From Candidatus Paralachnospira caecorum (GTDB lineage Bacteria > Bacillota > Clostridia > Lachnospirales > Lachnospiraceae): a stretch of 42,524 nucleotides of DNA. The stretch is taken from NCBI GenBank assembly GCA_904379015.1, contig CAJFHG010000031.1:1-42524 (forward strand), read 5' to 3'. The notes under the pieces were generated by a model that worked only from the letters and a program-made list of their open reading frames with translations, did not search any database and was not told the DNA's origin. Both the position numbers and the translations under genes were made by a program. Below are positions 13,988 to 33,446 of this stretch, one piece after another; positions within the stretch are counted from its first letter, which is position 1, and each line of letters starts with the position of its first letter.

Positions 13988-14002
13988 AAGGAGGCACAGA
14001 GA

Positions 14003-17505: not shown

Positions 17506-17534
17506 TTGACAGTGCATTTTTCATACAGTATAAT
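17506..17534 (+). promoter_or_regulatory. Perfect-consensus sigma-A promoter of the corrinoid operon
   Basis: TTGACA at 17506-17511 and TATAAT at 17529-17534 match both consensus hexamers with the ideal 17-bp spacer. Such a strong promoter fits a gene set whose control lies downstream in the riboswitch. Transcription should start near 17541, about 110 nt before the aptamer. Confidence 0.85.
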
Positions 17535-17650
17535 CGGAAGCAGGATGTCGAAACGGGGCTTATACATGTTTCGATCAAAATCAGATATGATACAATAAAA
17601 AAGAGCATTTGACTTTTCAGACGTTGTATCAGTGAAAATTGAATAAGGTG

Positions 17651-17804
17651 AACTGTAGCCGATTCACTGCGGCAAGGAATACGGTGAGAATCCGTAACAG
17701 ACTATCTCTACTGTAAGGAGGACGAAACGGGCAAAGATGCCACTGGGAAACTGGGAAGGCGCCCTTAGTAGGTTGAATCTAAGTCAGGACACAAGTTTAC
17801 AGTT
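17651..17804 (+). promoter_or_regulatory. Cobalamin riboswitch aptamer
   Basis: The sequence carries the conserved landmarks of the cobalamin riboswitch family: GGAATACGGTGAGAATCCGT at about 17685-17704, then GCCACTGGGAAACTGGGAAG at about 17738-17757, and AAGTCAGGACA (the B12 box region) at about 17781-17791. A closing P1 stem is visible (AACTGTA 17651-17657 with TACAGTT 17798-17804), as are an ACGG/CCGT stem and a GGC/GCC stem. Cobalamin riboswitches usually shut expression when the cofactor is plentiful. Together with the terminator at 17864 it should repress the surface-protein and transporter genes downstream. Which corrinoid it prefers cannot be told by eye. Confidence 0.9.
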
Positions 17805-17863
17805 ACTGAAATCGTAAGCATGGCGATAAGGTGATACTCTTTTTGGGCATCCACATTTTACCC

Positions 17864-17887
17864 ATCTTCCGTAAGGAAGATTTTTTT
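17864..17887 (+). terminator. Riboswitch expression-platform terminator
   Basis: ATCTTCC (17864-17870), a GTAA loop and GGAAGAT (17875-17881) run into seven T. Located 60 nt after the aptamer and before the first structural gene, it is the likely OFF structure. Two more small hairpins (CACAG/CTGTG and GTTCCG/CGGAAC) follow before the start codon. Confidence 0.87.
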
Positions 17888-17994
17888 GTTTCACAGGAAA
17901 CTGTGTTCCGGCGGAACAGAAAGCAGGAGTTGTACTGCGGGTAAAGCACACAGATTTGTTCTCAGGGATCCAGACAGGAAAAGGAGGGGATTAT

Positions 17995-20900
17995 GTGAAA
18001 AACAGGAGAACAAAGTATCTATGGAAACGTCTGACGGTTATGATGCTCGTATTTTTTTTGCTCTGCCAGACGGCAGTTCCCGCATTTGCGGCGGAGGAGA
18101 CGGAAGCCTCCGGACTGACCCCGGCGGCAGGGGAAATGGCACACGAAGAGGAAGCGGCGGATCTTTCAGTTGCCACGGCGGGCGAGCTGAAGGTGTTCCG
18201 TGACGCGGTGAACGCGGGCGACAGATATGAGGGAAAGACCGTGCGGCTGACGGCGAACATCGATCTGGCCGGCAGCGAAACGGATCAGTGGACGCCTATT
18301 ACGGGCTTTGCCGGAACATTTGACGGAGATGGCCATGTGATTTCCGGCCTCTACATCAATACTTCAGCGGGTAGTCAGGGCCTGTTCGGAACTGTTACCG
18401 CGGGCGGCGCGGTGCGGAATCTGACCGTGCGCGGGAGCGTCACAGGGGGAAGCTCAACGGGCGGCCTGATCGGAAGCCTCACCAGCGGAACAGTGGAGAA
18501 CTGCCAGAGCAGCGTGACGGTGAATGGAAGCAGCAATGTGGGCGGTCTTGTGGGCACCATCGGCGGGACATCTGTGATCCGTACCAGTGCCAATTACGGA
18601 GAGGTGCGGGGAACCGTCGGTTATGTAGGAGGAATCGCGGCGCTGACGGCGGGAAGCAGCTATACCATTGAGAACTGCTTCAATGCGGGAACAGTGGCAG
18701 GCCCCGCGTCCGTGGGCGGGATTTCCAGCGGTTCCAGGAGCGGGAGTCCGACACATAAGAACTGTTATAACTACGGAATGGTGGAGGTGACCGGAACCGG
18801 CAGCGGAAGCAATGTTGGAGCCATCTCCGGCAGCGGAAGAGGGAGCATCACCAACTGTTATTATCTGACCGGAACAGCGGCCGGAGGCGCCAACGGCTCC
18901 GACGCGGAAGGCGCAACGGCTCCGAAGACAGAGGCGGAGATGAAGGACGCTTCTTTTGTTGATTTGCTGAACGCGGGAGGCTCTGCTTATACGGCAGATT
19001 CTGCGGATACGCCGGTCAACGGCGGATATCCGGTGTTTGCATGGCAGCTGGCGGTGGATCAGACAGAACCGGGGGAATCGGAAACGCCTGAATTTGAGGA
19101 GGCGACAGAGCTTTCTGCTCAGCTTTCTTCCTATATCAGACAGATGATCGACGGCCGCCGTGCCCAGAATGGGATCGCAGAGGGAGAAAGCCTGATGGGC
19201 AGCGATTCCTGGACGGCGGGAGCCAGCAGCACCGGAACGGACTGGTTCGCGCTGGCCATGGGACGCTACAGCTATGTGAACAGCGAAGGGGCGACAGTCT
19301 ATCTGTATGATGACTTTGGCGGGTACGCGGCTTATCTGGAAGCCATGTGCCAATACATAACCGATACCTATGCGGCCAACAGCGGCATTCTGGACAGAAA
19401 CAAGGCGACGGAGTGGCAGAGAGCGGCTGTGACGATTCTGGCTCTGGGCGGAGACCCCACCAGCTTCGGGACCTACAATGGGACGGAGATCAATCTGGTG
19501 GCGGACGGCGGCTATTATTGCGTGATCTCGCCGGGACGGCAGGGGCTGAACGGATGGATATGGGGCCTGATCATGATCAATGCCATGGATTATGAAGTCC
19601 CCGGGGACGCCGCTTATCCTGTGGAAACATTCATCACACAGATCCTGAGCCGGCAGATGGCGGACGGCGTGAACGGGAACGCATACGGCGGATGGGCGCT
19701 GAGCGGGAGTTCATCAGATCCGGATATGACGGCTATGGCAATCCAGGCGCTGGCGCCCTATTACAACAGCAGCACCGAATATACGTATGAGCTGGGCGGA
19801 GAGACCGTTGTCAAAACTGTGCACCAGGCGGTCAATGAGGCGCTGGACTGGCTGTCAGAGAATCAGAATGACGCCGGAGACTTTGGCAGCTGGGGCACCA
19901 CTAATGTGGAAAGTACAGCGCAGGTCCTGGTGGCCGTTTTATCCCTGAATCTGGATCCGGCAGCGGATGAGCGGTTCATTACAGATTCGGGCAATACCCT
20001 GCTGGACGGAATCTTAAAGTATCGTCTGGCGGACGGCACCTTTTCCCATACTTACGGAGCTGCCCCCAACGGAATGGCTACAGACCAGGCGGGCTATGCC
20101 CTGGTGGCGTACTGGAGGTACGAGAACGGCATGAGGAGCCTGTATGACTTCAGGGCACCCAGGAGTCAGGAAGCACAGGCGGCCATCAACGCCGCGGAGA
20201 CGGCGATCAGCAGCCTTCCGGCAGCGGGAACAGAAGGATATAAAGGGGCGCTGATGGACGCTTACCTGACCTGTCTTGCGGTGAAGGAGACGGAACGGCA
20301 GTATATTTCCAATTACGATGTTCTCTACAGGGCGATTGAACAGGCAGGCGGTCTTGGCAATCTGGATAAGGACGACCCCTATCCAGTGGAGCTGACGCTG
20401 ATTTCCCCGCCGGATAAAACCGCTTATCAGGAGAATGAATTCTTTGACCCTGCGGGGATGTCCGTCGGGCTGCGGTACAGCGACGGCACGGTGACAGAGG
20501 TGACGGGGTATACCTATCTTCCGGACAGAGCGCTGGCGCCGGAGGATGAGGAGATTGTCATTTATTATCAGGGCTTTTCCGTCACTGTGCCTGTGACGGT
20601 GGAAGAACAGGTGCCCTGGAACGGCTCCGGGACAGAAGAGGATCCTTATCTGATCAGCCGGGCTCAGGATCTGGAGGCCCTCAGTGATTTTGTCAATGTG
20701 AAGAGAAAGAACTGCGACGGTCTGTATTTCAAAATGACCGATAACATTAATATGGAAGATGTGGACGACTGGAGGCCCATCGGCACTTCCAGCTGGGGAT
20801 TCAACGGGATTTTTGACGGCGGAAACCACGCGGTCAAAAACCTCACTTATACTTCGGGCAGCTATGCGGGACTGTTTGGCTGTGTGGTGAGAGGGACTGT

Positions 20901-23472
20901 TAAAAATCTGGGCATGGCAGGAGGAAGCTTTGGAAGATCAAACGGGAGCTTCTGCGGCGCCATCGTCGGATGGGCAGAATCCATCACCATGGAAAACTGC
21001 TGGAGCAGCGCGTCTGTGTCCGGAAATTATACGGGCGGTCTGATCGGCACAGTCCGGGGCGGCGCGTCTACGATTTCGGGATGCTTTAACAGCGGGACTG
21101 TGACCGGTTCAAACGTAGGCGGAATTGTGGGACATCTGAGCGCTTCTGCCCTGACGGCCGTTTCCGACTGCTACAATGTGGGCGCGGTCACGACATCCAG
21201 CAGCGGCGGCGGCATCTGCGGTCGGGTGCAGGATACCAATACGATCCGGAACTGCTACAATACAGGACTGATCACGGTGACGGGAAGCGACCTTCTCAAT
21301 CTCGGAGAAATTTGCGGTCTCGTCACGAGCGGAAGCACCAGTGAAAATAATTACTATCTTGCGGGACAGAGCGATCTGACCGGCGTCGGTGCTCAGGAGG
21401 ACAGCCAGTCGGGCTGCACGGCTCTGACGGAAGAGGACATGAAGGCGTCCGGCTTCCCGGGACAGCTCAGCGACCGCTTCGAAGCAGATACGGCAGGGCT
21501 GAACGGCGGCTATCCGGTCCTGACATGGCAGCCGCTCGTCAATCTTGACACAGAAGCAAAAAATGTGGATCTGTATATTACGACAGAAGAAGAGTTCCTC
21601 GCCTTCGCGGCAGCTGTCAACGCGGGTGAATCCTATGAGGGCATGCTGGTGGCGCTGACGCGGGATATGAATCTGGCCTTTGAGACATGGACGCCCATTG
21701 GAAATGAGAACAACAGCTTTAACGGAACCTTTGATGGTCAGGGTTTCGGCGTTTCCGGCCTTCTGGTGGAGGCATCAGGCAGCTGCGGCGGTCTGTTCGG
21801 AGTCATCGGAGCCGACGCGGTGATCCGCGACACAGGCGTGAATTCAGGATCAGTTGCCGCGGCAAGTGTGGCCGGAGGCCTGATCGGCCGTGCCGCGGAT
21901 GGATTCCAGATCCTGAACTGCTGGAACCTGGCCGATGTATCGGCACAGATCATGGCCGGAGGCATTCTGGGAAGTGTGGATACCGGATATGTGGACGATT
22001 CTTCCGATCCGGTGACGAGTTTGATTTCAGGCTGCTATAACGGCGGAGCTGTCACTGTGTCTTCCATGCTGGCAGGAGGCGTTGTGGCGGAGGCCAGACA
22101 TGTAAAGGCAGAAAACTGCTACAACGTGGGAACTGTCACCGCGCCTCTGTATGAGGGAGGCATTACCGGATGGCTGCTGCGACAGGGAATCCTGTCCAAC
22201 TGCTATAACGCGGGCCCGGTATCCCGCGCTGGCGTCGCGGGGAGCGTGCTGTCCGGCGACAATGCGGAGGTTGAAAACTGCTATTATGTATCGGACGGTT
22301 TTTCGTCAGAGGCCGCAGACGGTTCAGCGGGCCTGAGCGCGGAGGAAATGAAGGAGGAATCCTTCGCGGAACGGCTGGGAGACGCTTATCGGGCGGAGAG
22401 TGGCTTCAACAACGGTTATCCGGTCCTTTTCTGGGAGGAGAGCCGTTATGTGATTTCTTCTGACACAAGGCTGGCAGGGGTCGCCCTCGGCCGATACGCG
22501 GGAGAAGAAGTTTCTGAAGGCATATGGCAGATTACCGTTCCGGAGGGCGTGGAACCCATGCAGTTCGGTCTTACCGTGACGCCGGAGGATCCCAACAGCC
22601 GGTTTACCACCCCGCTTGCGGATGAAGCCTATCAAGAATGGAACTTCACTGTGACGGCTGAGGATGGTACGACTGCGGATTATACGGTATATGTGACGGT
22701 GGGACACAGCTATCTGGATGAGCTGGCGGCAGCCGGAGTGGATGCTCTGATCGGCGAGATTCCCGATACCATTACGATGGAGAGCGGCGCGGCGATCGAG
22801 GCGGCCAGAGAGGCGTATGAGGCCCTCACCACTCTTCAGAAGGATCTGGTCCGGAATCTGGAAGCGCTGGAGGCCGCGGAAGCGGCGTACAGCCGTCTGG
22901 TCGATTCCTATCGTTTCGTTGACGTGCCGGATGACGCCTGGTTCGCGGAAGAGGTACAGTATGTGTATGCGCATCAGATCATGACGGGCACGGATCCGGA
23001 ACGGCATATCTTTTCGCCCTATGAGACCGTGGCCCGCGCCCAGTTTGCCCTGATCATTCACAGGATGGAGGGAGAGCCGGAGGCTGAGAACGGAAAAACA
23101 TTCCCGGATGTTTCAGCGGATGAATGGTACGCGCGGGCGATTGCCTGGGCTTCCTCAGATGAAGTCGGCATCATCACCGGATATTCATCGGGATATTTCG
23201 GTCCGTCCAATTACGTGACGAGAGAGCAGATGGCGGTTATGCTGTACCGCTATGTCCGGTATAAAGGCTATGACACTTCCACCAGCGCGGATCTGGGAAG
23301 CTACAGAGACGCGGATCAGGTCAGCGACTTTGCCCTCGATGCGATGAAATGGGCGGTGGGCGCCGGTATCATCAGCGGAAAATATGATCAGACCATGCTT
23401 GAGCCTATGGCGGGTACAAGCCGTGCCGAGGCAGCAGTTATGATCACGCGTTTTATGAAACAGTTTCAGTAA
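17995..23472 (+). CDS. Giant SLH-anchored surface protein with transcobalamin-like alpha/alpha toroid
   Basis: A protein of 1825 residues. The GTG at 17995 follows AAGGAGGGG; a longer frame to 17956 lacks a ribosome site. A signal peptide ends near residue 33 (VPAFAA). Domains in order: GLUG-type beta-helix repeats (about 56-352); an alpha/alpha toroid (about 373-718) with helical-repeat motifs DPDMTAMAIQALAPYY, NVESTAQVLVAVLSL and NGMATDQAGYALVAYW, like those of prenyltransferase-fold proteins and the alpha domain of intrinsic factor; a helical linker; a bacterial Ig-like domain (about 796-872); GLUG blocks (about 875-1180 and 1188-1480); a cadherin-like beta-sandwich (about 1483-1571); a helical hairpin; and three SLH domains (about 1640-1825), which bind cell-wall polymer. 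It is the first gene behind the cobalamin riboswitch. I infer that it captures corrinoids at the outer cell surface. Confidence 0.85.
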   Translation: MKNRRTKYLWKRLTVMMLVFFLLCQTAVPAFAAEETEASGLTPAAGEMAHEEEAADLSVATAGELKVFRDAVNAGDRYEGKTVRLTANIDLAGSETDQWTPITGFAGTFDGDGHVISGLYINTSAGSQGLFGTVTAGGAVRNLTVRGSVTGGSSTGGLIGSLTSGTVENCQSSVTVNGSSNVGGLVGTIGGTSVIRTSANYGEVRGTVGYVGGIAALTAGSSYTIENCFNAGTVAGPASVGGISSGSRSGSPTHKNCYNYGMVEVTGTGSGSNVGAISGSGRGSITNCYYLTGTAAGGANGSDAEGATAPKTEAEMKDASFVDLLNAGGSAYTADSADTPVNGGYPVFAWQLAVDQTEPGESETPEFEEATELSAQLSSYIRQMIDGRRAQNGIAEGESLMGSDSWTAGASSTGTDWFALAMGRYSYVNSEGATVYLYDDFGGYAAYLEAMCQYITDTYAANSGILDRNKATEWQRAAVTILALGGDPTSFGTYNGTEINLVADGGYYCVISPGRQGLNGWIWGLIMINAMDYEVPGDAAYPVETFITQILSRQMADGVNGNAYGGWALSGSSSDPDMTAMAIQALAPYYNSSTEYTYELGGETVVKTVHQAVNEALDWLSENQNDAGDFGSWGTTNVESTAQVLVAVLSLNLDPAADERFITDSGNTLLDGILKYRLADGTFSHTYGAAPNGMATDQAGYALVAYWRYENGMRSLYDFRAPRSQEAQAAINAAETAISSLPAAGTEGYKGALMDAYLTCLAVKETERQYISNYDVLYRAIEQAGGLGNLDKDDPYPVELTLISPPDKTAYQENEFFDPAGMSVGLRYSDGTVTEVTGYTYLPDRALAPEDEEIVIYYQGFSVTVPVTVEEQVPWNGSGTEEDPYLISRAQDLEALSDFVNVKRKNCDGLYFKMTDNINMEDVDDWRPIGTSSWGFNGIFDGGNHAVKNLTYTSGSYAGLFGCVVRGTVKNLGMAGGSFGRSNGSFCGAIVGWAESITMENCWSSASVSGNYTGGLIGTVRGGASTISGCFNSGTVTGSNVGGIVGHLSASALTAVSDCYNVGAVTTSSSGGGICGRVQDTNTIRNCYNTGLITVTGSDLLNLGEICGLVTSGSTSENNYYLAGQSDLTGVGAQEDSQSGCTALTEEDMKASGFPGQLSDRFEADTAGLNGGYPVLTWQPLVNLDTEAKNVDLYITTEEEFLAFAAAVNAGESYEGMLVALTRDMNLAFETWTPIGNENNSFNGTFDGQGFGVSGLLVEASGSCGGLFGVIGADAVIRDTGVNSGSVAAASVAGGLIGRAADGFQILNCWNLADVSAQIMAGGILGSVDTGYVDDSSDPVTSLISGCYNGGAVTVSSMLAGGVVAEARHVKAENCYNVGTVTAPLYEGGITGWLLRQGILSNCYNAGPVSRAGVAGSVLSGDNAEVENCYYVSDGFSSEAADGSAGLSAEEMKEESFAERLGDAYRAESGFNNGYPVLFWEESRYVISSDTRLAGVALGRYAGEEVSEGIWQITVPEGVEPMQFGLTVTPEDPNSRFTTPLADEAYQEWNFTVTAEDGTTADYTVYVTVGHSYLDELAAAGVDALIGEIPDTITMESGAAIEAAREAYEALTTLQKDLVRNLEALEAAEAAYSRLVDSYRFVDVPDDAWFAEEVQYVYAHQIMTGTDPERHIFSPYETVARAQFALIIHRMEGEPEAENGKTFPDVSADEWYARAIAWASSDEVGIITGYSSGYFGPSNYVTREQMAVMLYRYVRYKGYDTSTSADLGSYRDADQVSDFALDAMKWAVGAGIISGKYDQTMLEPMAGTSRAEAAVMITRFMKQFQ

Positions 23473-23510
23473 GACTGATTCAGAAGAACCGTATCTTGAA
23501 ATGTAACGGG

Positions 23511-23547
23511 CTGCGCGGCCGGAGGACAGACGGATCCGGCCGCGCAG
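23511..23547 (+). other. Intercistronic stem-loop
   Basis: A perfect 12-bp GC-rich stem (CTGCGCGGCCGG at 23511-23522 with CCGGCCGCGCAG at 23536-23547) sits between the first and second genes of the operon with no T-run. It may pause polymerase or protect the upstream mRNA, allowing more of the giant surface protein than of the downstream products. Confidence 0.6.
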
Positions 23548-23566
23548 ATCAAAAAAGGAGCTTTTC

Positions 23567-25597
23567 ATGGGAAAATGGATCAAACGGCTGGCAATGGTTT
23601 TGACTGCGGCAGTCCTGGCAGGAGCAGTTTACGGCGGACTGCGGCAGGCGGGCGCTTACGCGCCCGAAAATCCCATGGATGAGCCGGCAGAGCAATATTC
23701 TCTGATCCGGGCTTCTGAGGATCTGGAAGCAGGAAGCGGAGCAGGGGATTTTTATTTTGATATCAGCAGTGAATTTGAACAGGAGGCTCAGGATGAAGAA
23801 AATCCGGAGCCGGAACAGACGGAGCCGGATCCCGGCGCCCGGCAGACAGAGACGGGAGAAACGGAAGGGCAGATGCTGTCAGGAGGGACTGTGCTGACCG
23901 GCGGAGAGGAGACGGGAGAACAGGAGAAAACGCAGAACGTGATCCAGACGGCGGAACCTCCGGAGCAGGAAAATCCGACTGAATCGCCGCAAAGGGATTA
24001 TGACGGTTATTTTACCACATCGATCCGGGAAGGGGAAGTCTTAAGTTCCCGTTCTTACAGTTTTACAATTCAGCAGAAGGATCATGGGCTTACAGTGGAA
24101 GATACACAGGTGGCGGTCAATGGAACGGGTGTGGAACCCTTTCAGGGCCAGGTTTATCTGGAGGAGGGGGAGAATACCATTACCATCACCGTGACTTATA
24201 CAGACGAGGAGGAGGGGCGGACATTTCAGGTGAGCCGTTCCTATCATGTGGAGGTGGTTCTGGGAGAAATCGCCCTGAATGTCCGGGGACTTTCCGACGG
24301 CGCGGAGGTCTCTTCCTCCTCTTTCAATTTTGACGCCTCCGCCTCCTATGAAGGTGAAGAAATTCCTTTATTGGTGACGCTGAACGGAAATACCGTCCAG
24401 CGTAAGTACAGCGGCTATCAGTGTCGGCTGGAGGAGGGGGAGAATGAAATCCGCCTGAAGGCCGAGGCAGAGGACGGGACCGTCAAAGAAGCGGTTTATC
24501 ACATTGTTTATATCAGGCCGGAATCCAGCTATGAGATCGTGACGGATCTGGCCGATCAGGAGGTAAACGCGGCTGAATTCGCATTTCATGTGGCAGTGAC
24601 CCGGCAGGGAGTGCCGACCCAGAATTTCAGCGTCCGTCTGAACGGCGCGGAAATTTTCGGAACAGACGGCGCTTATGCCTGCAGTCTTCTGGAGGGCGAC
24701 AATCTGATCGAGATCCTGGCGGGCAGTCTGGAGGAACGGGTTACGGAACAGTATGTGGTCAATTATGTGGTGGTAGTGCCGGGGGACGGGGATGCGGATC
24801 TATCCGGACAGCAGCCCCGCATCAATTACAGCGGCATCGGCGACGGTATGGAGATCCGGGATACGGTGTGGAACATTGAGCTGGCCTCCAGGGACTATAA
24901 AGGCGAGCGGATCCAGGCCGACGGCATCTCTGTCACCTGCAACGGAGAGACGGCAGTGCTGATCTGGGATGACAGCGTCAAGACCAGTTACCGCCTGCAT
25001 CTGACCTCCGGAATCAATGAGATCATCTTTACAGTTACAGACAGCTATGGGAACATCGCTTCTGAAACCATTCATGTCACCTGCACGGCGGCGGAGGACG
25101 GAGCCGTGATCGGAACGGTCACCATCAGTCTGGAAGCTACCACCATCGGACTGGGATCTCTCATTCCACCGACGCAGGTGGAGATCCGTCAGGGGGAGAG
25201 TCTGGCCTATGTTCTGGACCGCTTCCTGAAAGCGCACGGGTTTGATTATACCTGTACGGGAACTCTGGAGAGCGGGTTTTATCTGGCCAGCGTGATCAAA
25301 GAAGGGATCATTTCCAGCCCGTCGGTGCCGGAGGATCTGGCCCGGGTACTGGAAGAAAACAACATTCCCTACAGTCTGACCGACTATGGAAGTCCCGATG
25401 AACTGGGGGAGTTTGATTTTGGAGAAAAGTCGGGATGGATGTATTCCATAGACGGAAATTATCCTAATTACGGATTTTCGGACGCCTATCTGACGGACGG
25501 GAATGAGGTGCGCATCCGTTATACCCTCGCACTGGGCCGGGACATCGGAGGCGGAGGCGCCGCGGGAGATGAAAACAGCAATCTGGGAGAATGGTAG
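23567..25597 (+). CDS. Secreted multi-Ig protein with C-terminal DUF4430 domain
   Basis: A 676-residue exported protein. An N-terminal signal/anchor segment (about residues 6-25) is followed by an acidic, Pro/Glu/Thr-rich linker (to about 145), then about four repeated beta-sandwich domains with a recurring pattern of YLEEGENTITITV, CRLEEGENEIRL and CSLLEGDNLIEIL. The C-terminal domain (about 522-660) is a DUF4430 domain, with EIRQGESLAYVLDRFL, GWMYSIDGNYPNYGF and a closing YTLALGRDIGG. DUF4430 resembles the beta domain of transcobalamin and intrinsic factor, which closes over cobalamin. AAAGGAG precedes the ATG. No SLH or LPXTG anchor is seen, so it is held by its N-terminal helix or released. 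I infer that it is the beta partner of the upstream toroid protein. Confidence 0.82.
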   Translation: MGKWIKRLAMVLTAAVLAGAVYGGLRQAGAYAPENPMDEPAEQYSLIRASEDLEAGSGAGDFYFDISSEFEQEAQDEENPEPEQTEPDPGARQTETGETEGQMLSGGTVLTGGEETGEQEKTQNVIQTAEPPEQENPTESPQRDYDGYFTTSIREGEVLSSRSYSFTIQQKDHGLTVEDTQVAVNGTGVEPFQGQVYLEEGENTITITVTYTDEEEGRTFQVSRSYHVEVVLGEIALNVRGLSDGAEVSSSSFNFDASASYEGEEIPLLVTLNGNTVQRKYSGYQCRLEEGENEIRLKAEAEDGTVKEAVYHIVYIRPESSYEIVTDLADQEVNAAEFAFHVAVTRQGVPTQNFSVRLNGAEIFGTDGAYACSLLEGDNLIEILAGSLEERVTEQYVVNYVVVVPGDGDADLSGQQPRINYSGIGDGMEIRDTVWNIELASRDYKGERIQADGISVTCNGETAVLIWDDSVKTSYRLHLTSGINEIIFTVTDSYGNIASETIHVTCTAAEDGAVIGTVTISLEATTIGLGSLIPPTQVEIRQGESLAYVLDRFLKAHGFDYTCTGTLESGFYLASVIKEGIISSPSVPEDLARVLEENNIPYSLTDYGSPDELGEFDFGEKSGWMYSIDGNYPNYGFSDAYLTDGNEVRIRYTLALGRDIGGGGAAGDENSNLGEW

Positions 25598-25599
25598 AT

Positions 25600-27537
25600 A
25601 TGGTAAGACGAAAAAAATGGATCCGTCTGCTGGCGGCGGCGCTGGTTTTTGTGTGCTGCCGCCCGGCAGGGTCGGAAACCGTCCTGGCGGCGGAAGAGGA
25701 GACTGCGGTCCATCACGATTATACGGCGGAGGAAATCCGGCAGATCATAGAAGACGGCATTGCCTGGAAAAAAGAAGAAAGCGGGATTTCCGGCGATACG
25801 GGCCTTCTGAACGGGCCGTTTCTGAACAGCGTGGGAACCACTTCGGGAGACTGGTACGCACTGGCGCTGGGACGCATAGGAGAGGTGGACAACCTGCAAG
25901 GATACGCGGCAGTGCTGGAACAGAATGTGCTGAGCCGCTATGAAACGGAACAAAAGCTGGACAGCGACAAGGCGACAGAGTGGCACAGGATCGCGCTGAC
26001 CCTTTTGTCTCTGGGACAGGATCCGACCGATCTCACGGGAGAAGACGGAGAAACGGTCAATCTGATCGCGGACGGTGTCTATAACCGGGGAAAAACAAAA
26101 GATCTGGGGGCCCAGGGACTGAACGGTTATATCTGGGGACTTCTGACTCTGGACAGTCTCCGTTACAGGGTGCCGGAAGACGCCTCTGACACCCGCAGGG
26201 ACATTCTCGATGTGATGGCGGACAGTCAGCTGGCGGACGGGAGCTTTGCCCTTGCCGGCACGGAAGAAGGAAAGGGTGACGTGGATGTGACCGCTATGGC
26301 TGTGCAGGCGCTGGCGCCTTATTATAACGCTTCTGAAAGGTTTGGCACGAAGTCCGGACGGACAGTCCGTGAAATCGTGGACGCTGCCCTGGCTTTTCTG
26401 TCAGGACAGCAGACAGAGTCCGGAGCCTTTTCAAGCTGGGGAGAGGAAAATCTGGAAAGCGCGGCCCAGGTGGTCCTGGCGCTGTGCGCCCTGGGGAGAA
26501 ATCCCGCTTCAGAGGAAGCGTTTATCAAAAACGGCCGGACACTGCTGGACGGAATGATGCAGTTTCGCATGGGGGACGGAGGATTTGTCCACTCATTTTC
26601 TCACGACAGCGAAAATCCGGATGCCAGACCGGACACCTCCAATTCCATGGCCACGGAGCAGGCACTCTGCGCGCTGACAGCTCTGTACCGCCTTTACGGA
26701 AATTTCAGGAGCTTTTATGATTTCAGACCGGAGGCAGAGGGGGCCGTGAAGGAACAGATCACGGATCTGGAAGAGCAGATCGGGGCGCTGGACGAAGGCG
26801 CACAGGCCGGGCAGATTGAGGCGCTGCTGGAAGCGTATCAGGCGGTGCCTGTTTCAGAGCGCTCCTATGTGAGTAATTTCTGGAAGCTGTTCGATGCCAT
26901 GGAACAGGCGGGGATTCCGGATGATTCCGACTCTATCCTGGAGGCGATGGAAACGGCGGAAGGCGGAGACGGCGCCGTGATCTCCATATTTGAAGACGGA
27001 GGGGAGGTATCAGCCCATATCCTGTTTACGGAGGCGGACGCGCAGACGGTATCAGAACTTCCGGATCCGGTGACGACAGAGTCCGGCGGAGCGGTGACTG
27101 CTCTGCTCGACAAGCTGAACAAAGCGGAAAACCGTGGCGATTATGAGGAACTGGTCCCCGTGCTGGAAGAGAAACAGGCTCAGATTGAAGTAATCCTGGA
27201 TGAGATTGAATCGATCAACCAGGAGATTCTGGACAGCCTTTATCCATATGAAGAGATTTCCCTGAAGGACAGGGAAACCGTGAAAGCCATCTCGGCCAGG
27301 ATCGGGAGCCTGAGCGAATACGACAGAAGCCGGATCCAGGGAGCGGAGGATGTGCTGCGGGCTGAAACCCGTCTGGACACCTGGATCCGCATGCTGGTGA
27401 TCTTCGCGGCAGCCGCGGCTGCTGCGGCTGTTCTTTCCGCCGTTCTGGTGATCCGGCACCGGAAGCGGAGGCGGGACAGGCTGGAGAGACAGATGCTCCT
27501 GCCGTCGGATCTGGATGATGAGGACAGTGATTTTTAA
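25600..27537 (+). CDS. Membrane-anchored transcobalamin-like alpha/alpha toroid protein
   Basis: A 645-residue protein with an N-terminal signal peptide ending near VLAAEEE, an alpha/alpha toroid (about residues 35-375), a helical stalk and a C-terminal membrane helix (about 600-622), then a basic cytoplasmic tail. The toroid is clearly homologous to that of the giant surface protein: both share SGDWYALALGR/GTDWFALAMGR, a KATEW motif, QGLNGYIWGL/QGLNGWIWGL, TAMAVQALAPYYN and FYDFRPEA/LYDFRAP. VDVTAMAVQALAPYY also resembles the repeat of the alpha domain of intrinsic factor and transcobalamin. The ATG at 25600 has GGGAGA at 25584-25589; one at 25591 overlaps the upstream stop and is too close to it. 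I infer a membrane-proximal corrinoid-binding alpha subunit. Confidence 0.83.
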   Translation: MVRRKKWIRLLAAALVFVCCRPAGSETVLAAEEETAVHHDYTAEEIRQIIEDGIAWKKEESGISGDTGLLNGPFLNSVGTTSGDWYALALGRIGEVDNLQGYAAVLEQNVLSRYETEQKLDSDKATEWHRIALTLLSLGQDPTDLTGEDGETVNLIADGVYNRGKTKDLGAQGLNGYIWGLLTLDSLRYRVPEDASDTRRDILDVMADSQLADGSFALAGTEEGKGDVDVTAMAVQALAPYYNASERFGTKSGRTVREIVDAALAFLSGQQTESGAFSSWGEENLESAAQVVLALCALGRNPASEEAFIKNGRTLLDGMMQFRMGDGGFVHSFSHDSENPDARPDTSNSMATEQALCALTALYRLYGNFRSFYDFRPEAEGAVKEQITDLEEQIGALDEGAQAGQIEALLEAYQAVPVSERSYVSNFWKLFDAMEQAGIPDDSDSILEAMETAEGGDGAVISIFEDGGEVSAHILFTEADAQTVSELPDPVTTESGGAVTALLDKLNKAENRGDYEELVPVLEEKQAQIEVILDEIESINQEILDSLYPYEEISLKDRETVKAISARIGSLSEYDRSRIQGAEDVLRAETRLDTWIRMLVIFAAAAAAAAVLSAVLVIRHRKRRRDRLERQMLLPSDLDDEDSDF

Positions 27538-27563
27538 AGAAAAGCCGGAGGAGGGAGCGCAGC

Positions 27564-28112
27564 GTGAAAAAAGATATTCTCATACTGGGAGCCGTTATTC
27601 TTCTGGTCATTCTTCTGGCGGCCGGAACGGACATCCAGTCGGTGGACGAGTATTATCTGACTCATATTGATGACATTACAGAAGATTCGGAGACTGTAAC
27701 ACTGAGCATCAACTGCAGCACGGTCCTGGACAACTGGGACAGGCTGCCGGAGTCTTTGCAGGATGAAGCATATGTGCCGTCAGACGGATGGATCATGAAA
27801 AAGACAGAATATGTACTGCGTCCCGGGGATACGGCATTTGACATTCTGAACCGGGCGGTCCGCCACCAGAAAATCCAGATGGAGTACCAGGGGGCTGACG
27901 CCAACGTATACAACAGTGTGTATATCCAGGGGATCCATTATCTGTATGAGTATTCCTGCGGGCCTTTGAGCGGATGGATGTACCGGGTCAACGGCGAGTT
28001 TCCCGACTGCGGATGTGACGCCTATCAGCTGAAGGATGGGGACCGGATCGAATTCATCTACACCTGTGACCTGGGACGGGATATCGGCGGAGAAATGAGA
28101 AAGGAGGAATGA
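27564..28112 (+). CDS. Membrane-anchored DUF4430 (transcobalamin beta-like) protein
   Basis: A 182-residue protein. A hydrophobic N-terminal helix (about residues 5-21) with no cleavage or lipobox motif anchors it, and the rest is one DUF4430 domain: YVLRPGDTAFDILNRAVR, then GIHYLYEYSCGPLSG, GWMYRVNGEFPDCGCDAY and EFIYTCDLGRDIGGE. It contains several cysteines, including a CGC pair (PDCGCDAY), that could form disulfides or bind a ligand. DUF4430 corresponds to the C-terminal beta domain of eukaryotic cobalamin carriers. It lies between the membrane toroid gene and the ECF transporter genes, so it is the natural beta partner of the former. It ends 3 nt before the next start, which indicates coupled expression. 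Confidence 0.85.
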   Translation: MKKDILILGAVILLVILLAAGTDIQSVDEYYLTHIDDITEDSETVTLSINCSTVLDNWDRLPESLQDEAYVPSDGWIMKKTEYVLRPGDTAFDILNRAVRHQKIQMEYQGADANVYNSVYIQGIHYLYEYSCGPLSGWMYRVNGEFPDCGCDAYQLKDGDRIEFIYTCDLGRDIGGEMRKEE

Positions 28113-28115
28113 GCC

Positions 28116-28997
28116 ATGGGAGATTTTGCGTCTTTTCATCCGGCTGTTTCATTTGTGTATTATGTGCTGGTGCTGGCGGTTTCCATGTTTACCCTGCATC
28201 CGGTGCCGGTGGTGATCTCTATGGCAGGGGCCTTTCTTTACTTTGCCCTCACCCACAGAATCCGCGTGACAGTCTCTGATGCGGTATTCTATATTCTGCT
28301 GTTCATCCTGCTTTCTCTGACAAATCCGCTGTTTGTCCACAATGGGGAGACGATCCTGTTTTTCATGAACGGAAATCCCATTACCCTGGAGGTGTTTCTT
28401 TACGGCATGGCCATGGCCGGGATGCTGATCGGGGTCATGTACTGGTGCAAGTGCTATCAGATTGTGATGACTTCGGACAAATTTCTGTATCTGTTCGGAA
28501 GGGCGGTTCCCAGACTTTCCCTAGTCCTTTCCATGGCGCTTCGGTTTATCCCGCTGTTTAAAAAACACGCGGGAGAGGTGAGGCGGGTGCAGAAGACCAT
28601 GGGTATGTACGCGGGAACCGGAATCACGGACCGGCTGCTGTTTTCTCTCCGGGTGTTCGACAGCGTGGCGGGATGGTCACTGGAAAACGCCATTGATACG
28701 GCTGATTCCATGCGTGCGAGGGGATATGGCCTGAAGGGCAGGAGCAATTTTTCTGTTTTTCCCTTTGAAAAGAAAGATCTGCTCATGCTTGCGGTCCTGG
28801 CGGCAGCGGCCGCCGCTGTTCTGGGCGGATATTTCGCGGGCGTATTTGATTTTTCTTATTATCCGGCTGCGGATCAGGTTGCGTTTGGTTCCGGTCTGAT
28901 TGTTCAGACGGTCATCCTGTCGGCGCTTATGCTGCTGCCGGCGGTTCTGGAGATAAAGGAGAAGATAAAGTGGAATTACTTGAAGTCAGGAATCTGA
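28116..28997 (+). CDS. ECF transporter transmembrane (T) component
   Basis: A 293-residue membrane protein of the CbiQ/EcfT family, which couples the ATPases to the substrate-binding S component in group-type vitamin and metal transporters. It has about five or six hydrophobic helices, and in the long cytoplasmic region the family signature DSMRARGYG, with the related coupling stretch RFIPLFKKHAGEVRR before it. AAAGGAGG precedes the ATG. It overlaps the ATPase gene by 28 nt. Placement behind a cobalamin riboswitch and before a vitamin-type S component points to corrinoid uptake, though Co2+ uptake must be kept as an alternative. Confidence 0.9.
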   Translation: MGDFASFHPAVSFVYYVLVLAVSMFTLHPVPVVISMAGAFLYFALTHRIRVTVSDAVFYILLFILLSLTNPLFVHNGETILFFMNGNPITLEVFLYGMAMAGMLIGVMYWCKCYQIVMTSDKFLYLFGRAVPRLSLVLSMALRFIPLFKKHAGEVRRVQKTMGMYAGTGITDRLLFSLRVFDSVAGWSLENAIDTADSMRARGYGLKGRSNFSVFPFEKKDLLMLAVLAAAAAAVLGGYFAGVFDFSYYPAADQVAFGSGLIVQTVILSALMLLPAVLEIKEKIKWNYLKSGI

Positions 28998-30721
28998 GCT
29001 TTTCCTATGCGGGAGAGTCAAAAAAAGCTGTGGAGGATGTTTCATTTTCCGCGGATGAGGGAACGTTTACTGTGATCTGCGGAGAATCCGGCTGCGGAAA
29101 GACAACCCTTCTCAGACTCATCAAACGGGAGCTTTCACCCCGCGGGGAAAAAAGCGGAGAGATTTTGTACAGAGGAGAACTGCAGGAAGCGCTGGATGAC
29201 AGGACGGCCGCCTCTCAGATCGGCTTTGTCCTGCAGAATCCAGAGCAGCAGCTGGTCACGGACAAGGTCTGGCATGAACTGGCATTCGGACTGGAAAATC
29301 TGGGATATCCGACTCCGCTCATCCGGCAGAAGGTGGGAGAGATGGCAAACTTTTTCGGAATCCATCCCTGGTTTCAGAAGAAAACCAGCGAGCTGTCGGG
29401 AGGTCAGAAGCAGCTTCTGAATCTGGCCTCTGTCATGGTCATGCAGCCGAAGCTTCTGCTTCTGGACGAACCCACTTCCCAGCTGGATCCGATTGCGGCG
29501 TCGGATTTCATCGCTACTTTGAAAAAGCTCAATGAAGAGCTGGGCCTGACCATCATCATGACCGAACACCGGCTGGAAGAGGTGTTTTCCATTGCGGACA
29601 GGGCCATTGTCATGGAAAACGGGAGGATCCTGCTGGCTGATACGCCCGGAGGGGCCGGAGCTTCTCTGGCATCCATGGAGGATGGAAAGCGCATGTCTGT
29701 GAGCATGCCGAGCGCCGTCCGGATCTATCAGGCCACAAAGGACCTGCTGAAGAAAGAGGAAACCTTCTGTCCCCTCACGGTACGGGAAGGCCGGGCTTAC
29801 CTGGAGAAACATTTTGGGAATCAGATCCGTTCCCCGGAGGCCGGAGAAAACAGTCGGGAAAGGAACCCTGTTCCTGACGGGAAAAGGGAGGCGGTCCTGC
29901 AGATGCGGGAGGTCTGGTTCCGCTATGAGCGGGAGCTGCCGGATGTGCTGAGAAGCGCGGCGCTGACTATGGAGGCGGGAGAGATTGTCAGCATTCTCGG
30001 CGGAAACGGATCGGGGAAGACGACACTTTTAAATGTGATCAGCGGAGCCAGAAGAGCTTACCGGGGAAAGCTGCGGATCTTCGGGAAAAGGATGAAGGAT
30101 TATAAAGGAAATGAACTGTACCGGAACCACCTGGCGCTCCTGCCGCAGAATCCTCAGACTGTTTTTGTAAAAGCGACAGTCCGGGAGGAATACCGGGAGA
30201 CCGGACGGCTCATGGGGTATCGGAAGGAAGAACTGGAGGAACGGATCGAGGCGCAGGCGGAGCAGCTGCAGATCCGGGCGCTTCTGGACCGGCATCCTTA
30301 TGATCTGAGCGGCGGGGAACAGCAGAAAGCGGCTCTGGGGAAGATCCTGCTGCTGAATCCGAGGCTGCTGCTTCTGGACGAGCCCACGAAAGGAATTGAT
30401 GCCTGGTCCAAGCAGATGCTCATGGGAATCCTGCGCGGCCTGAAGAAAAAAGGAATTTCCATGCTTCTGGTGACCCATGATGTGGAGTTTGCGGCGGAAA
30501 TATCGGACCGGTGCGGCCTGTTCTTTGACGGCCAGGTCCTGAGTGCCGGACCGCCCCGGGAATTTTTTTCTGAAAATACCTTTTATACGACGGCGGCCAG
30601 CAGGATTTCCAGGAACCGTTATGGCGGGGCGGTCACATGCGCAGACGTGATCGGTCTGTGCAGACAGAACGGGGCGCTTCAGAGTGAGACGGCCGCGGGC
30701 AGCGGAGGTGAGAGTCTGTGA
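28970..30721 (+). CDS. ECF transporter fused double ATPase (A-A')
   Basis: A 583-residue cytoplasmic protein with two complete ATPase domains in one chain. Domain 1: Walker A GESGCGKTT, Q-loop in FVLQNPEQQLV, signature LSGGQKQLL, Walker B LLLLDEPTSQLDP and H-loop IIMTEHRLEE. Domain 2: GGNGSGKTT, LLPQNPQTVF, LSGGEQQKAA, LLLLDEPTKGID and LLVTHDVEF. The Q-loop QNP and the following acid pattern are typical of EcfA/CbiO. A GTG start at 28970 follows AAAGGAG. In most ECF systems A and A' are separate genes, so the fusion gives a fixed 1:1 ratio. Both sites look competent. Confidence 0.92.
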   Translation: MELLEVRNLSFSYAGESKKAVEDVSFSADEGTFTVICGESGCGKTTLLRLIKRELSPRGEKSGEILYRGELQEALDDRTAASQIGFVLQNPEQQLVTDKVWHELAFGLENLGYPTPLIRQKVGEMANFFGIHPWFQKKTSELSGGQKQLLNLASVMVMQPKLLLLDEPTSQLDPIAASDFIATLKKLNEELGLTIIMTEHRLEEVFSIADRAIVMENGRILLADTPGGAGASLASMEDGKRMSVSMPSAVRIYQATKDLLKKEETFCPLTVREGRAYLEKHFGNQIRSPEAGENSRERNPVPDGKREAVLQMREVWFRYERELPDVLRSAALTMEAGEIVSILGGNGSGKTTLLNVISGARRAYRGKLRIFGKRMKDYKGNELYRNHLALLPQNPQTVFVKATVREEYRETGRLMGYRKEELEERIEAQAEQLQIRALLDRHPYDLSGGEQQKAALGKILLLNPRLLLLDEPTKGIDAWSKQMLMGILRGLKKKGISMLLVTHDVEFAAEISDRCGLFFDGQVLSAGPPREFFSENTFYTTAASRISRNRYGGAVTCADVIGLCRQNGALQSETAAGSGGESL

Positions 30722-31407
30722 GCCGCAGGAAAAAGTGGAATATTGTGATTCTGACGATCGGAGTGCCGCTCCTGATCGCGGCGGGGGTCCGACTGTTTCA
30801 TGACAGGCGCTATCATCTGATCTCCCTGGCCATTGTGCTGGTGGCCTGTCTGCCTTTTTTCCATTTTTTTGAGAAAAAGAGGACGGATACCCGCACGCTG
30901 GTGGTGGTCGCGGTGATGACGGCCCTAGCGGTGACAGGACGGTTTATTTTTGCGCCGGTGCCCGGCTTTAAGCCGGTCACGGCCCTGGTGATTCTGGCCG
31001 GCATGTATCTGGGTTCAGAGGCCGGGTTCCTGACAGGAGCCCTGTCGGCAGTGATTTCCAATATGTTTTTCGGGCAGGGACCCTGGACCCCTTTTCAGAT
31101 GTTTGCCTGGGGTATGATCGGTCTCATCGCGGGGCTCTCGTTTTTGCGGCGGCTTTTGAGACAGAAATGGATCCTTCTGGCCTATGGTGTTTTTGCAGGT
31201 GTGCTCTACTCCTTCCTGATGGATATCTGGACGGTGCTTTCCATGGACGGGGGATTCCGGCTGAGCCGCTATCTGGTGAGGATGGCCAGTGCCCTTCCTT
31301 TCACAGCGGCCTACGCCGCCTCAAATGTGGTGTTTCTCTGGCTGATCAGGAAGCCGCTGGGCGATAAGCTGGAACGACTGAATATAAAATACGGAATCGG
31401 AGGTTGA
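30718..31407 (+). CDS. ECF transporter substrate-binding (S) component, probable corrinoid type
   Basis: A 229-residue integral membrane protein with about six or seven hydrophobic helices. Family-like features are the second-half pattern RTLVVVAVMTALAVTGRF, a short helix with GFKPVTALVILAGMYLG, and FGQGPWTPFQMFAWGMIG, as in S components of the CbrT-like group (ECF S component for cobalamin). The GTG start overlaps the upstream stop (GTGA) and follows GGAGGTGA. A cobalamin riboswitch upstream supports cobalamin, cobinamide or another corrinoid as the ligand; this is inferred from context plus a family resemblance and not from known binding residues. Confidence 0.82.
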   Translation: MSRRKKWNIVILTIGVPLLIAAGVRLFHDRRYHLISLAIVLVACLPFFHFFEKKRTDTRTLVVVAVMTALAVTGRFIFAPVPGFKPVTALVILAGMYLGSEAGFLTGALSAVISNMFFGQGPWTPFQMFAWGMIGLIAGLSFLRRLLRQKWILLAYGVFAGVLYSFLMDIWTVLSMDGGFRLSRYLVRMASALPFTAAYAASNVVFLWLIRKPLGDKLERLNIKYGIGG

Positions 31408-31411
31408 AACA

Positions 31412-32350
31412 TTGGAACAGACAGAAAAGATCGTGGAACGGATCCTGGCTGAGATCAAAAAAGTGGTGGTCGGAAAGGACGCGGTGGTGGAAAAGGTTCT
31501 GATGGCCATGCTGGCCAGAGGGCATGTGCTTCTGGAGGACATTCCCGGCGTGGGAAAAACGACGCTGGCGCTGGCTTTTGGAAGGGCGATGGGACTGTCC
31601 TGTAAAAGAATCCAGTTTACACCGGATACGCTGCCCTCAGATGTGACGGGATTTACCATGTATGAGAAAGCGCAGGGGGCCTTTGTCTATAAGGAGGGAG
31701 CGGCCATGACAAATCTCCTCTTGGCGGATGAGATCAACCGGACCTCCAGCAAAACCCAGTCGGCGCTTCTGGAGATCATGGAAGAAGGCAATGTGACAGT
31801 GGATGGCGTGACCCATCCCCTGCCCAGGCCCTTTTTCGTGATCTCCACCCAGAATCCGCTGGGATTCGCGGGGACGCAGATGCTGCCGGAGTCCCAGCTG
31901 GACCGTTTTATTGTACGGCTGTCCATGGGGTATCCGGATGCGGAAAGCCAGCTGACCATTCTGAAGGACAGACAGAAGGAACAGCCGCTGGATCTGGTGG
32001 AGCAGGTGACGGACGCGGAAGGAATCCTGTCCATGCAGACGCTGGTGGATGAGATCTACGTTTCCGACGCAGTGCTGAACTATATGATCGCGCTGGCAGA
32101 GGCCACCCGCGGCCACGAGCTGGTGTCGCTGGGGGTCAGTCCGAGGGGAATCCTGGCCTTAAGCCGCATGGCGAAAGCGCGGGCCTTTATGAGGGGAAGC
32201 GATTATGTGCTGCCGGAGGATGTGATCGACGTATTTCCCGATGTATGCGGCCACAGACTGATCCTGCGGGCCAAGTCCAGGCTGAGCGGCGTGACGGAGG
32301 CGGATGTGGCCGGCCAGATCCTGGAGACCGTAAAGAATCCTGTTTTATAG
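31412..32350 (+). CDS. MoxR-family AAA+ ATPase
   Basis: A 312-residue cytoplasmic AAA+ ATPase of the MoxR type, which remodels or activates partner proteins, often together with DUF58 and transglutaminase-like membrane proteins. Motifs are Walker A EDIPGVGKTT, Walker B LLLADEINRTSS, sensor 1 ISTQNPLGFAG, and SQLDRFIVR with its arginine, followed by the C-terminal lid with VSPRGILALSR. A TTG start at 31412 follows CGGAGG. It begins only 4 nt after the S-component stop, so it is almost certainly in the same transcript as the corrinoid uptake genes. Confidence 0.9.
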   Translation: MEQTEKIVERILAEIKKVVVGKDAVVEKVLMAMLARGHVLLEDIPGVGKTTLALAFGRAMGLSCKRIQFTPDTLPSDVTGFTMYEKAQGAFVYKEGAAMTNLLLADEINRTSSKTQSALLEIMEEGNVTVDGVTHPLPRPFFVISTQNPLGFAGTQMLPESQLDRFIVRLSMGYPDAESQLTILKDRQKEQPLDLVEQVTDAEGILSMQTLVDEIYVSDAVLNYMIALAEATRGHELVSLGVSPRGILALSRMAKARAFMRGSDYVLPEDVIDVFPDVCGHRLILRAKSRLSGVTEADVAGQILETVKNPVL

Positions 32351-32366: not shown

Positions 32367-33446
32367 ATGATCAAAACGAGACTTTTCTGGACGTTCTGGA
32401 TGCTCTTTCTGATCCTGGGCAGTCTTGCCTCCGGCCTGGCAGGGGGGCTGGCGCTGGCGGCGCTGACGGCGGTTCTGTCTGTCTGTTCCGGTGCGTTCTG
32501 TTTTCTGTCGGCAGACAGGATTTCCCTGACTTTTGAGCTGCCGTCCCGGACAGAAAAAGGAGAGGCGGCGGACTGCCGGATTATCCTCTCCAACAGCGGA
32601 AAACTGCCGGCCGCCGGGATCCGCCTGATTCTGGAACTGAACAACCATCTGACCGGAGAACGGCGCCGGGAGACCGTTTCCTGCGCTTTGGCCGCGGGAG
32701 CTGTCCGGGAGAAAAGTTTTTCCGCAGCCAGTATGTACTGCGGAACCGTGTCAGTGAGCGCTGTCTGTATGGAATGTACGGATCTTTTCCGGATTTTCAG
32801 GCGGAAACGGTATCCGGAGGAGACGGCGAAAATGTTCGTTCTGCCGGTTATGGCAGAGCAGGATTTTGTCGGCATCCGTCATGCCGTGCCCAGGGAGAGC
32901 GATACGTTCGCGGACGGCAGGCCGGGATCGGATCTGAGTGAGATATATGAGATCAGAGAATATCAGCCCGGGGACCCGGTCCGAACGTTTCACTGGAAGG
33001 CAACGGCAAAAGCGGACCGGATGATGGTGCGGGTGGGCAGCTTTCCCGTGGACAGGAGCATTCTGATTCTGTTTGACAGCTTCTGCAGGGATAAAAGGAT
33101 GCTGACGCCCGCCAGGCTGGACCGCCACGCGGAACGGTTTTTCTGCCTCTCCAGGAATCTGACTGAGCGTCATCTGCCTCACACGGCGGGCTGGTTTGAT
33201 GAAGAAGCGGGACAGATGGTGCTGTTTGAGCTGACTTCTGAAGAAAGTCTGGCGGATGTGATGGAGAGCATTCTTTCTCTTCCTCACAGAGAATCTGAAA
33301 AGGGTGTGCTGGAACGATATCTGGAGATGCCGGACAGGGAAGAATTCGGAACCATTTATCTGGAAACGCTGCAGATGCCGGAGAAACTGCCGGAAGAACT
33401 GGCAGACAGGATTGATGTGCTGGGAAAGCTGACAGGAAAAGGATAG
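32367..33446 (+). CDS. DUF58 membrane protein
   Basis: A 359-residue protein. Two close hydrophobic helices at the N terminus (about residues 7-50) anchor it; a beta-rich region follows, then the DUF58 core with SEIYEIREYQPGDPVRTF and HWKATAKADRMMVR, the family signature. A von Willebrand A-like fold has been suggested for the C-terminal part; here a metal-binding DxSxS motif is only partly visible (RSILILFDSF). An AAAAGGAGCGGG site precedes the ATG. It lies in the classic order MoxR-DUF58-transglutaminase, a conserved module with poorly known cell-envelope functions. Confidence 0.88.
   Translation: MIKTRLFWTFWMLFLILGSLASGLAGGLALAALTAVLSVCSGAFCFLSADRISLTFELPSRTEKGEAADCRIILSNSGKLPAAGIRLILELNNHLTGERRRETVSCALAAGAVREKSFSAASMYCGTVSVSAVCMECTDLFRIFRRKRYPEETAKMFVLPVMAEQDFVGIRHAVPRESDTFADGRPGSDLSEIYEIREYQPGDPVRTFHWKATAKADRMMVRVGSFPVDRSILILFDSFCRDKRMLTPARLDRHAERFFCLSRNLTERHLPHTAGWFDEEAGQMVLFELTSEESLADVMESILSLPHRESEKGVLERYLEMPDREEFGTIYLETLQMPEKLPEELADRIDVLGKLTGKG

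Follow-up and report, generated by a model that had tools for sequence, protein, structure and literature searches.

A conserved operon behind a cobalamin riboswitch in Candidatus Paralachnospira caecorum probably serves surface capture and import of corrinoids

The binding of B12 by animal carriers is almost irreversible, and control by cobalamin riboswitches is established as a class; how Gram-positive bacteria collect B12 before it reaches the membrane is poorly known. In this work, we analyzed a stretch of DNA of 42,524 nucleotides from Candidatus Paralachnospira caecorum (assembly GCA_904379015.1, contig CAJFHG010000031.1, positions 1 to 42,524; hereafter the window) and found an operon in which a cobalamin riboswitch precedes genes for two alpha/alpha-toroid proteins, two DUF4430 proteins, and a complete energy-coupling factor (ECF) transporter. 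We have high confidence that this is a conserved, cobalamin-controlled operon for corrinoid capture and uptake. It is of the kind predicted in 2007 (PMC1796856), with extra parts outside the 2007 text.

That prediction, by Burroughs et al. (2007; PMC1796856), concerned a transcobalamin-like clade of the SLBB beta-grasp superfamily in low-GC Gram-positive bacteria. Its members may be fused to toroids in either order, carry surface anchors, and occur with a second paralogue and with CbiO-like and CbiQ-like genes. The authors proposed B12 scavenging at the surface for these domains and a transfer of the carrier from such bacteria to animals, and they described a tendency for most bacteria with such proteins to be without key B12 biosynthesis enzymes. 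The terms riboswitch, MoxR, DUF58, transglutaminase, and substrate-specific never occur in the running text, to which this check applied (figures and supplement lie outside it). An earlier note on the window, made from its sequence alone, had proposed a split intrinsic-factor system and regarded the design as not established before. Because the 2007 paper predicted the same design, the central idea of that note is a rediscovery. We found no experiment on such a bacterial system in open-licence PMC, a collection outside which preprints and most subscription papers lie. The available part of PMC2667541 makes no mention of such proteins.

Several other described systems are comparable in part. 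With transcobalamin, intrinsic factor, and haptocorrin of vertebrates, which are the best fold matches of a homologue of the window proteins, the system has in common a two-domain plan of a toroid and a beta-grasp domain; unlike in these carriers, the halves are split in the window, the toroid falls outside PF01122, and the domain arrangement in our model is different. When the alpha and beta domains of transcobalamin are made separately, they co-elute only with cyanocobalamin; expressing them apart reduced the affinity, and crystals of the beta domain alone were obtained with either cyanocobalamin or cobinamide (PMC5599065). Human carriers release B12 only through proteolysis according to PMC5997447, which also reports transport of cobalamin and cobinamide, with nanomolar binding, by CbrT of Lactobacillus delbrueckii (PDB 6FNP) and names a cluster nrdJ-cbrS-cbrT-pduO. 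The window shares with ECF-CbrT a homologous S-component and the ECF module; L. delbrueckii CbrT uses a module common to other S-components, whereas T, A-A', and S of the window stand in one operon with surface proteins. Relatives of CbrT and BtuFCD are common in gut genomes (PMC6593275). BtuG/BtuB of Bacteroides (PMC6977713) captures B12 very tightly at the surface before transport, a likeness to the system as proposed for the window, but with a beta-propeller of unrelated fold at the outer membrane. Finally, a proteomic study of Lacticaseibacillus rhamnosus (PMC9963975) lists a DUF4430 protein encoded near rtpR; a protein annotated there as an additional lipoprotein component of a putative cobalamin ECF transporter may be this one or another.

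The window shares with the clade of Burroughs et al. the DUF4430-type domain, a toroid partner, anchoring, a second paralogue, and CbiO/CbiQ-like genes. Their text stresses fusions, whereas loci of the window type mostly have toroid and DUF4430 on separate chains, as is the case in the window and in contrast to eukaryotic cobalamin carriers, in which one chain holds both. The order of the elements is as follows.

17506..17534, forward strand: promoter of sigma-70 type, TTGACA-17-TATAAT (12/12 match)
17676..17792, forward strand: cobalamin riboswitch aptamer RF00174 (60 bits, E 1.5e-12, model positions 47-167 of 189)
17864..17881, forward strand: intrinsic terminator, a stem followed by a T run
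17995..23472, forward strand: P1, secreted protein of 1825 residues counted from GTG, with GLUG-like repeats (below cut-off), an alpha/alpha toroid, and C-terminal SLH repeats
23567..25597, forward strand: P2, secreted protein with Glucodextran_B/cadherin-like beta domains and a C-terminal DUF4430 domain
25591..27537, forward strand: P3, toroid protein with a signal-like N-terminus and a C-terminal membrane segment (603-621)
27564..28112, forward strand: P4, DUF4430 protein (PF14478, E 9.1e-19) with an N-terminal membrane segment (6-24)
28116..28997, forward strand: ECF T component, CbiQ-like (18.5 bits, below the Pfam cut-off of 25)
28970..30721, forward strand: fused ECF ATPases A-A', with two ABC_tran stretches and ECF_ATPase_1 over its cut-off
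30718..31407, forward strand: ECF S component, CbrT-like (CbrT 6fnp, E 3.9e-13)

The claim of a riboswitch and terminator ahead of two toroid, two DUF4430, and a full set of ECF genes is therefore confirmed at 17506-31407. The aptamer lies well over the gathering score of its family (31.5 bits), and a whole-genome search found the same riboswitch again. Promoter and terminator were each found once, where shuffled sequences averaged 1.0 and 0.4 sites; since these counts alone are no proof, the case for both rests on the perfect match and on their position. The more likely start of the first gene is the in-frame GTG at 17995, which is preceded by AAAGGAGGGG, a strong ribosome-binding site. From P1 through a transglutaminase homologue, ten same-strand genes run up to 35849 with gaps of at most 94 bases and several overlaps. 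If this tight spacing reflects one transcript, the operon would extend past the S gene to a MoxR/DUF58/transglutaminase trio, and the range 17506-31407 noted before would end three genes too soon.

As had been proposed, the S component of the importer is CbrT-like: among its two PDB matches at E up to 1, CbrT is the sole S-component, and a profile of 19 homologues matches CbrT at 6.5e-18, with the next match, 4hzu_S (which we take to be an S-component), at 1.3e-4. The Pfam and NCBIfam scans assigned it to broad riboflavin/folate S-component families, with the NCBIfam matches below their cut-offs, and listed no B12-specific S-component model for it.

To assess conservation, we scanned species genomes of GTDB, confirmed at least 576 stretches, and kept the best 80 by similarity to P4 as loci (L numbers below), a sample that is biased to the P4 subtype and contains some near-copies. 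Genes were called with profiles from these same data, and 55 of the 80 loci, with more than 2.5 kb upstream and 4.5 kb downstream, were counted as untruncated. Toroid, T, A, and S genes are all present in 45 of these 55; taken singly, the toroid gene is found in 53 and T, A, and S in 48 each, and the toroid gene adjoins a DUF4430 gene in 49. Fusion of A and S occurs in 18 of the 80 loci. A P4-type DUF4430 gene without a toroid gene in view was seen in six of the 80 (two of the untruncated). Carriers of the system include Anaerosalibacter, Ruminococcus bicirculans, Kurthia zopfii, Paenibacillus, Tissierella, Desulfosporosinus, and Lachnospira.

Thirty loci were chosen before scanning, their genomes were searched whole for RF00174, and the coordinates were mapped onto the loci. 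A match anywhere in the genome was found in 28 of the 30 at E 0.001, and in 25 over the cut-off. On the operon strand, 21 loci have an upstream match within 1.5 kb of the first recognized cluster gene and four more (L045, L047, L082, and L108) within about 3.2 kb, giving 25 of 30; it exceeds the family cut-off in 22 genomes and lies below it in L082, L086, and L118. The whole-genome searches placed no match upstream in L051, L074, L081, L090, and L106. Eleven genomes have a single match, which is the operon riboswitch in ten (the exception being L081), below the cut-off in three of them. Direct scans of 24 loci, picked after the mapping (L051, L074, L081, L082, L090, and L108 were left out), gave matches over the gathering score at the mapped coordinates in 19, did not list those of L042, L086, L094, and L118, and found none in L106; the figure of 19/24 is a check of the mapping and would be unfair as a rate, for which 22/30 is the fair figure. 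In 16 regions from relatives, several of them from the same genomes, RF00174 was found in ten, upstream of toroid/DUF4430/ECF genes in nine.

L042 has two riboswitch matches of 38.1 bits each in one cluster (979-1119 and 5631-5771), before a P1-like and a P2-like gene; both come from the whole-genome search, and the faster direct scan listed neither. L101 (13834-20346) has a second gene on the opposite strand, which encodes a product of 2061 residues with a toroid and three DUF4430 stretches and has its own cobalamin riboswitch.

The pairing of toroid and DUF4430, another claim made at the outset, is supported by natural fusions and by the fold of one of them. One open reading frame (ORF) holds both in 17 of the 80 loci, with a DUF4430 stretch of at least 78 residues in 11 of these and of 50-58 residues in six. 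In L081, a P3-like toroid is fused to a P4-like DUF4430 domain via a membrane hairpin of two helices and a short basic loop, so that both domains would sit outside; in L091 and L113, the linker is about 30 residues long. We modeled a 439-residue fragment of the L091 fusion with an alignment (A3) of 61 rows from the window and the named loci, the rows and end trims of which were selected by script for clean placement. The model has a predicted local distance difference test score (pLDDT) of 92.6 and a predicted template modeling score (pTM) of 0.71. In a Foldseek search against PDB (the best 50 of 844 matches), the top 15 are all chains of transcobalamin, intrinsic factor, or haptocorrin (E 1.8e-12 to 4.3e-10, 441-478 columns, 13-16% identity), many of them the same protein solved again, and the next match has an E of 5.3e-5. 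This lead comes partly from the presence of both domains in the carriers and therefore speaks for the architecture no less than for the individual domains.

The DUF4430 half is of the transcobalamin beta type: P2 matches PF14478 in its C-terminal part (E 3.6e-6) as P4 does, the DUF4430 profile has the beta domain of human transcobalamin as its best PDB match (E 0.0014), with intrinsic factor and haptocorrin unmatched in the same search, and the beta domain of the L091 model fits 5no0 with a template modeling (TM) score of 0.73 of target. The same score was obtained for this part against the roughly 100-residue fold of RUMGNA_00854 from Ruminococcus gnavus (PDB 3u7z, titled putative metal binding protein). 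The toroid of P1 (residues 417-745 of the 1838-residue ORF) was recognized by homology to that of P3 and has no match in the Pfam scan, while the P3 toroid has only matches below cut-offs (Prenyltrans, E 0.0074). By the Pfam cut-off, the toroid does not belong to PF01122, as P3 scores 11.4 bits against a cut-off of 25 and only two of 35 toroids match, with a best E of 0.012. Searched against PDB sequences, P3 alone, P4 alone, and alignment A1 had no significant match. Within the toroids, the P3 residues W88, Y105, D232, M236, H334, and Q357 are conserved in 104-113 of 114; H334 as a candidate ligand contact is speculation.

The whole is best explained as an operon for surface capture and import of corrinoids with toroid/DUF4430 pairs, to which we give a probability of about three in four. 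Corrinoid uptake is very likely because of the riboswitch, the CbrT-like S component, the conserved layout, the fusions, and the carrier fold match; that the pairs act as split transcobalamin-like clamps is held with moderate confidence. At low cobalamin, the riboswitch would allow transcription past the terminator, the sign of the control being presumed for this locus. Two toroid/DUF4430 pairs would then reach the outside of the cell, namely, P3 with P4 as a membrane-anchored pair and P1 with P2 as a longer pair, in which the SLH repeats would hold P1 in the wall. Because the halves are separate chains, the clamp could come apart and release its ligand to the CbrT-like S component, through which the T/A-A' module would drive the corrinoid across the membrane; the separation could lower the affinity enough for this hand-over. 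Of the split intrinsic-factor proposal, the component parts are supported, as are regulation by cobalamin, a CbrT-like importer, location at the surface, and the toroid-DUF4430 pairing, but not yet the clamp: we infer the ligand, its joint binding, release, and hand-over, and which toroid goes with which DUF4430 protein. If the clamp works as proposed, intrinsic factor and transcobalamin would have bacterial counterparts that are split in two, a point relevant to the suggestion of 2007 that the carrier passed from such bacteria to animals. Binding by the parts is open to direct measurement, since they are compact domains.

Several results weigh against this explanation. The model was made from the homologue L091, separate from P1-P4, and a single-sequence AlphaFold model of P3 had a pLDDT of 36 and was discarded. 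Carrier chains are the top matches of the L091 model, but the closed clamp is not reproduced and the domain placement differs, as seen from an overall TM of 0.34-0.43 by query length and a root mean square deviation of 22-24 A. By sequence, the toroid profile is closest in PDB to squalene-hopene cyclases (1.2e-14) and matches no B12 carrier at E up to 10, and the two-domain profile matches cyclases at 9.5e-13 and transcobalamin only at 0.4. Eight of the 30 genomes have no upstream riboswitch over the cut-off (three of the eight have one below it), and seven of the 16 regions from relatives have no RF00174 upstream, with the only one in L026 lying downstream. The system is also patchy, since a P4 relative was found in only 13 of 61 genomes (own genome and 60 relatives) and in two of 11 of the own genus. 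Furthermore, the own genome encodes CbiC (4.3e-81) and CobS (9.8e-47), in contrast to the tendency described by Burroughs et al.; the organism therefore probably makes corrinoids itself, and the operon would then serve salvage.

Other explanations were considered. The operon may handle corrinoids without a joint clamp. DUF4430 would then bind the corrinoid by itself, as substrate-binding lipoproteins do, and the toroids would have another ligand, e.g., a glycan of the wall, some partner protein, or a carrier of the host. The P4-type genes that have no toroid in view would fit, as would the lack of carriers among the matches of the toroid profile, the fact that the beta domain of transcobalamin binds cobalamin by itself (PMC5599065), and the L. 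rhamnosus DUF4430 protein near rtpR, for which the available text gives no toroid (PMC9963975). We nevertheless consider it unlikely, given that the toroid adjoins DUF4430 in most untruncated loci and shares a chain with it in 17 of 80, that the full chain matches two-domain carriers in fold, and that the six P3 residues are kept in nearly all toroids. Joint capture by toroid and DUF4430 could also serve another cargo, which might be cobalt, a different tetrapyrrole, or solely a precursor of corrinoids, and cobalamin would then act just as the regulator. ECF systems for haem (PMC7299338) and for cobalt exist, a cobalamin riboswitch in the own genome also precedes a CbiM/CbiQ/ATPase cobalt transporter, and the corrinoid biosynthesis genes of this genome point the same way. 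However, CbrT is by far the best match of the S component and is a transporter of cobalamin and cobinamide (PMC5997447), and the fold matches are B12 carriers, which makes another cargo very unlikely.

The cyclase matches of the toroid profile, together with weak TED matches in seven of 35 toroids, may instead suggest enzymes (terpene cyclases or prenyltransferases) or thioester proteins that stand in the operon for another reason. DxDD is the catalytic motif of the cyclases, and CxEQ is the motif of thioester proteins. DxDDT and CxEQ each occur in none of the 114 toroids, the fourth position of D-x-D-x is never Asp in 35 aligned toroids, and the toroid genes stand beside a B12-type importer; cyclases, prenyltransferases, and thioester proteins were rejected on the motif results, and this explanation appears extremely improbable.

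Beyond surface capture and import of corrinoids, the window adds the following three genes, the first of which begins four bases past the S gene.

31412..32350, forward strand: MoxR-type AAA ATPase (PF07726, 2e-53)
32367..33446, forward strand: DUF58 protein (PF01882, 1e-6)
33453..35849, forward strand: TgpA-like membrane transglutaminase homologue without catalytic Cys (PF01841, 6.7e-21; PF11992, 3.3e-10)

The MoxR/DUF58/TgpA module is, to our knowledge, little understood, and a trio with a cysteine-less transglutaminase would give it a concrete context. Ten of 96 loci (L026, L033, L042, L043, L044, L070, L079, L080, L082, and L090) have MoxR relatives (52-62% identity) together with a transglutaminase homologue within the cluster or next to it, L090 being without a DUF58 match; L051 shows DUF58 and transglutaminase genes at the edge of the examined stretch. 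In L070, L079, L082, and L033, the trio stands between the toroid and DUF4430 genes. The Cys of transglutaminase-like enzymes, which we take to be catalytic (triad C-H-D), is replaced by Asp in the window. Twelve cluster-linked copies were collected and 11 aligned (the incomplete L080 was dropped; L042-L044 are near-copies), and all 11 have Asp, Ala, Ser, or Glu at this position and keep the His; in those of L079 and L082, a Cys stands four positions before it. Of the 19 PF01841 matches in five genomes, 18 could be read: the four in the cluster, which are among the eleven, are without the Cys, and all 14 elsewhere have it, consistent with our assumption on its role. Many of these 14 belong to other subfamilies, and the nearest in the tree, L144 and L148, both have the Cys. 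In a tree of the domain (11 cluster-linked and seven other rows), the cluster-linked copies group to one side of a branch. Given its weak support (68/86) and the length of some rows, we make no claim of a single origin.

That this accessory trio works, in a subset of loci, as a machine without catalytic activity, putting the clamp together or opening it from across the membrane, and that the split is itself functional, solving release by letting the anchored halves be prised apart at the S component, would be quite an unlikely combination. Trio and riboswitch control are both absent from the text of PMC1796856; the trio looks new, although no literature search was aimed at it.

The absence of BtuFCD noted for the window extends to the genome assembly (2.59 Mb, 95.7% complete), in which a search with PF01497 and PF01032 found no BtuF or BtuC: the sole match to each family lies in adjoining genes, and the PF01497 protein is IsdE-like, a haem binder. 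Proteins with B12-binding domains are encoded at three places. Other cobalamin riboswitches precede CbiM, CbiQ, and ABC ATPase genes for cobalt uptake (contig C32, L132:2900-6016) and a FecE/BtuD-type ATPase gene (contig C41, L131:2570-3753), for which the best NCBIfam matches are below cut-off and the sole FecCD permease match of the genome lies elsewhere, beside the IsdE-like gene. A further one (99.6 bits) is found about 95 nt upstream of an ORF that matches UDP-glucose 4-epimerase GalE (TIGR01179, 6e-137; contig C1, L130:7060-8546), an unexpected riboswitch target. Elsewhere in the window, two adjoining ORFs with ABC ATPase domains (12227-15808) lie behind a TetR-type regulator gene (11097-11645), and ordinary SbcD/SbcC-like genes occupy 37947-42400.

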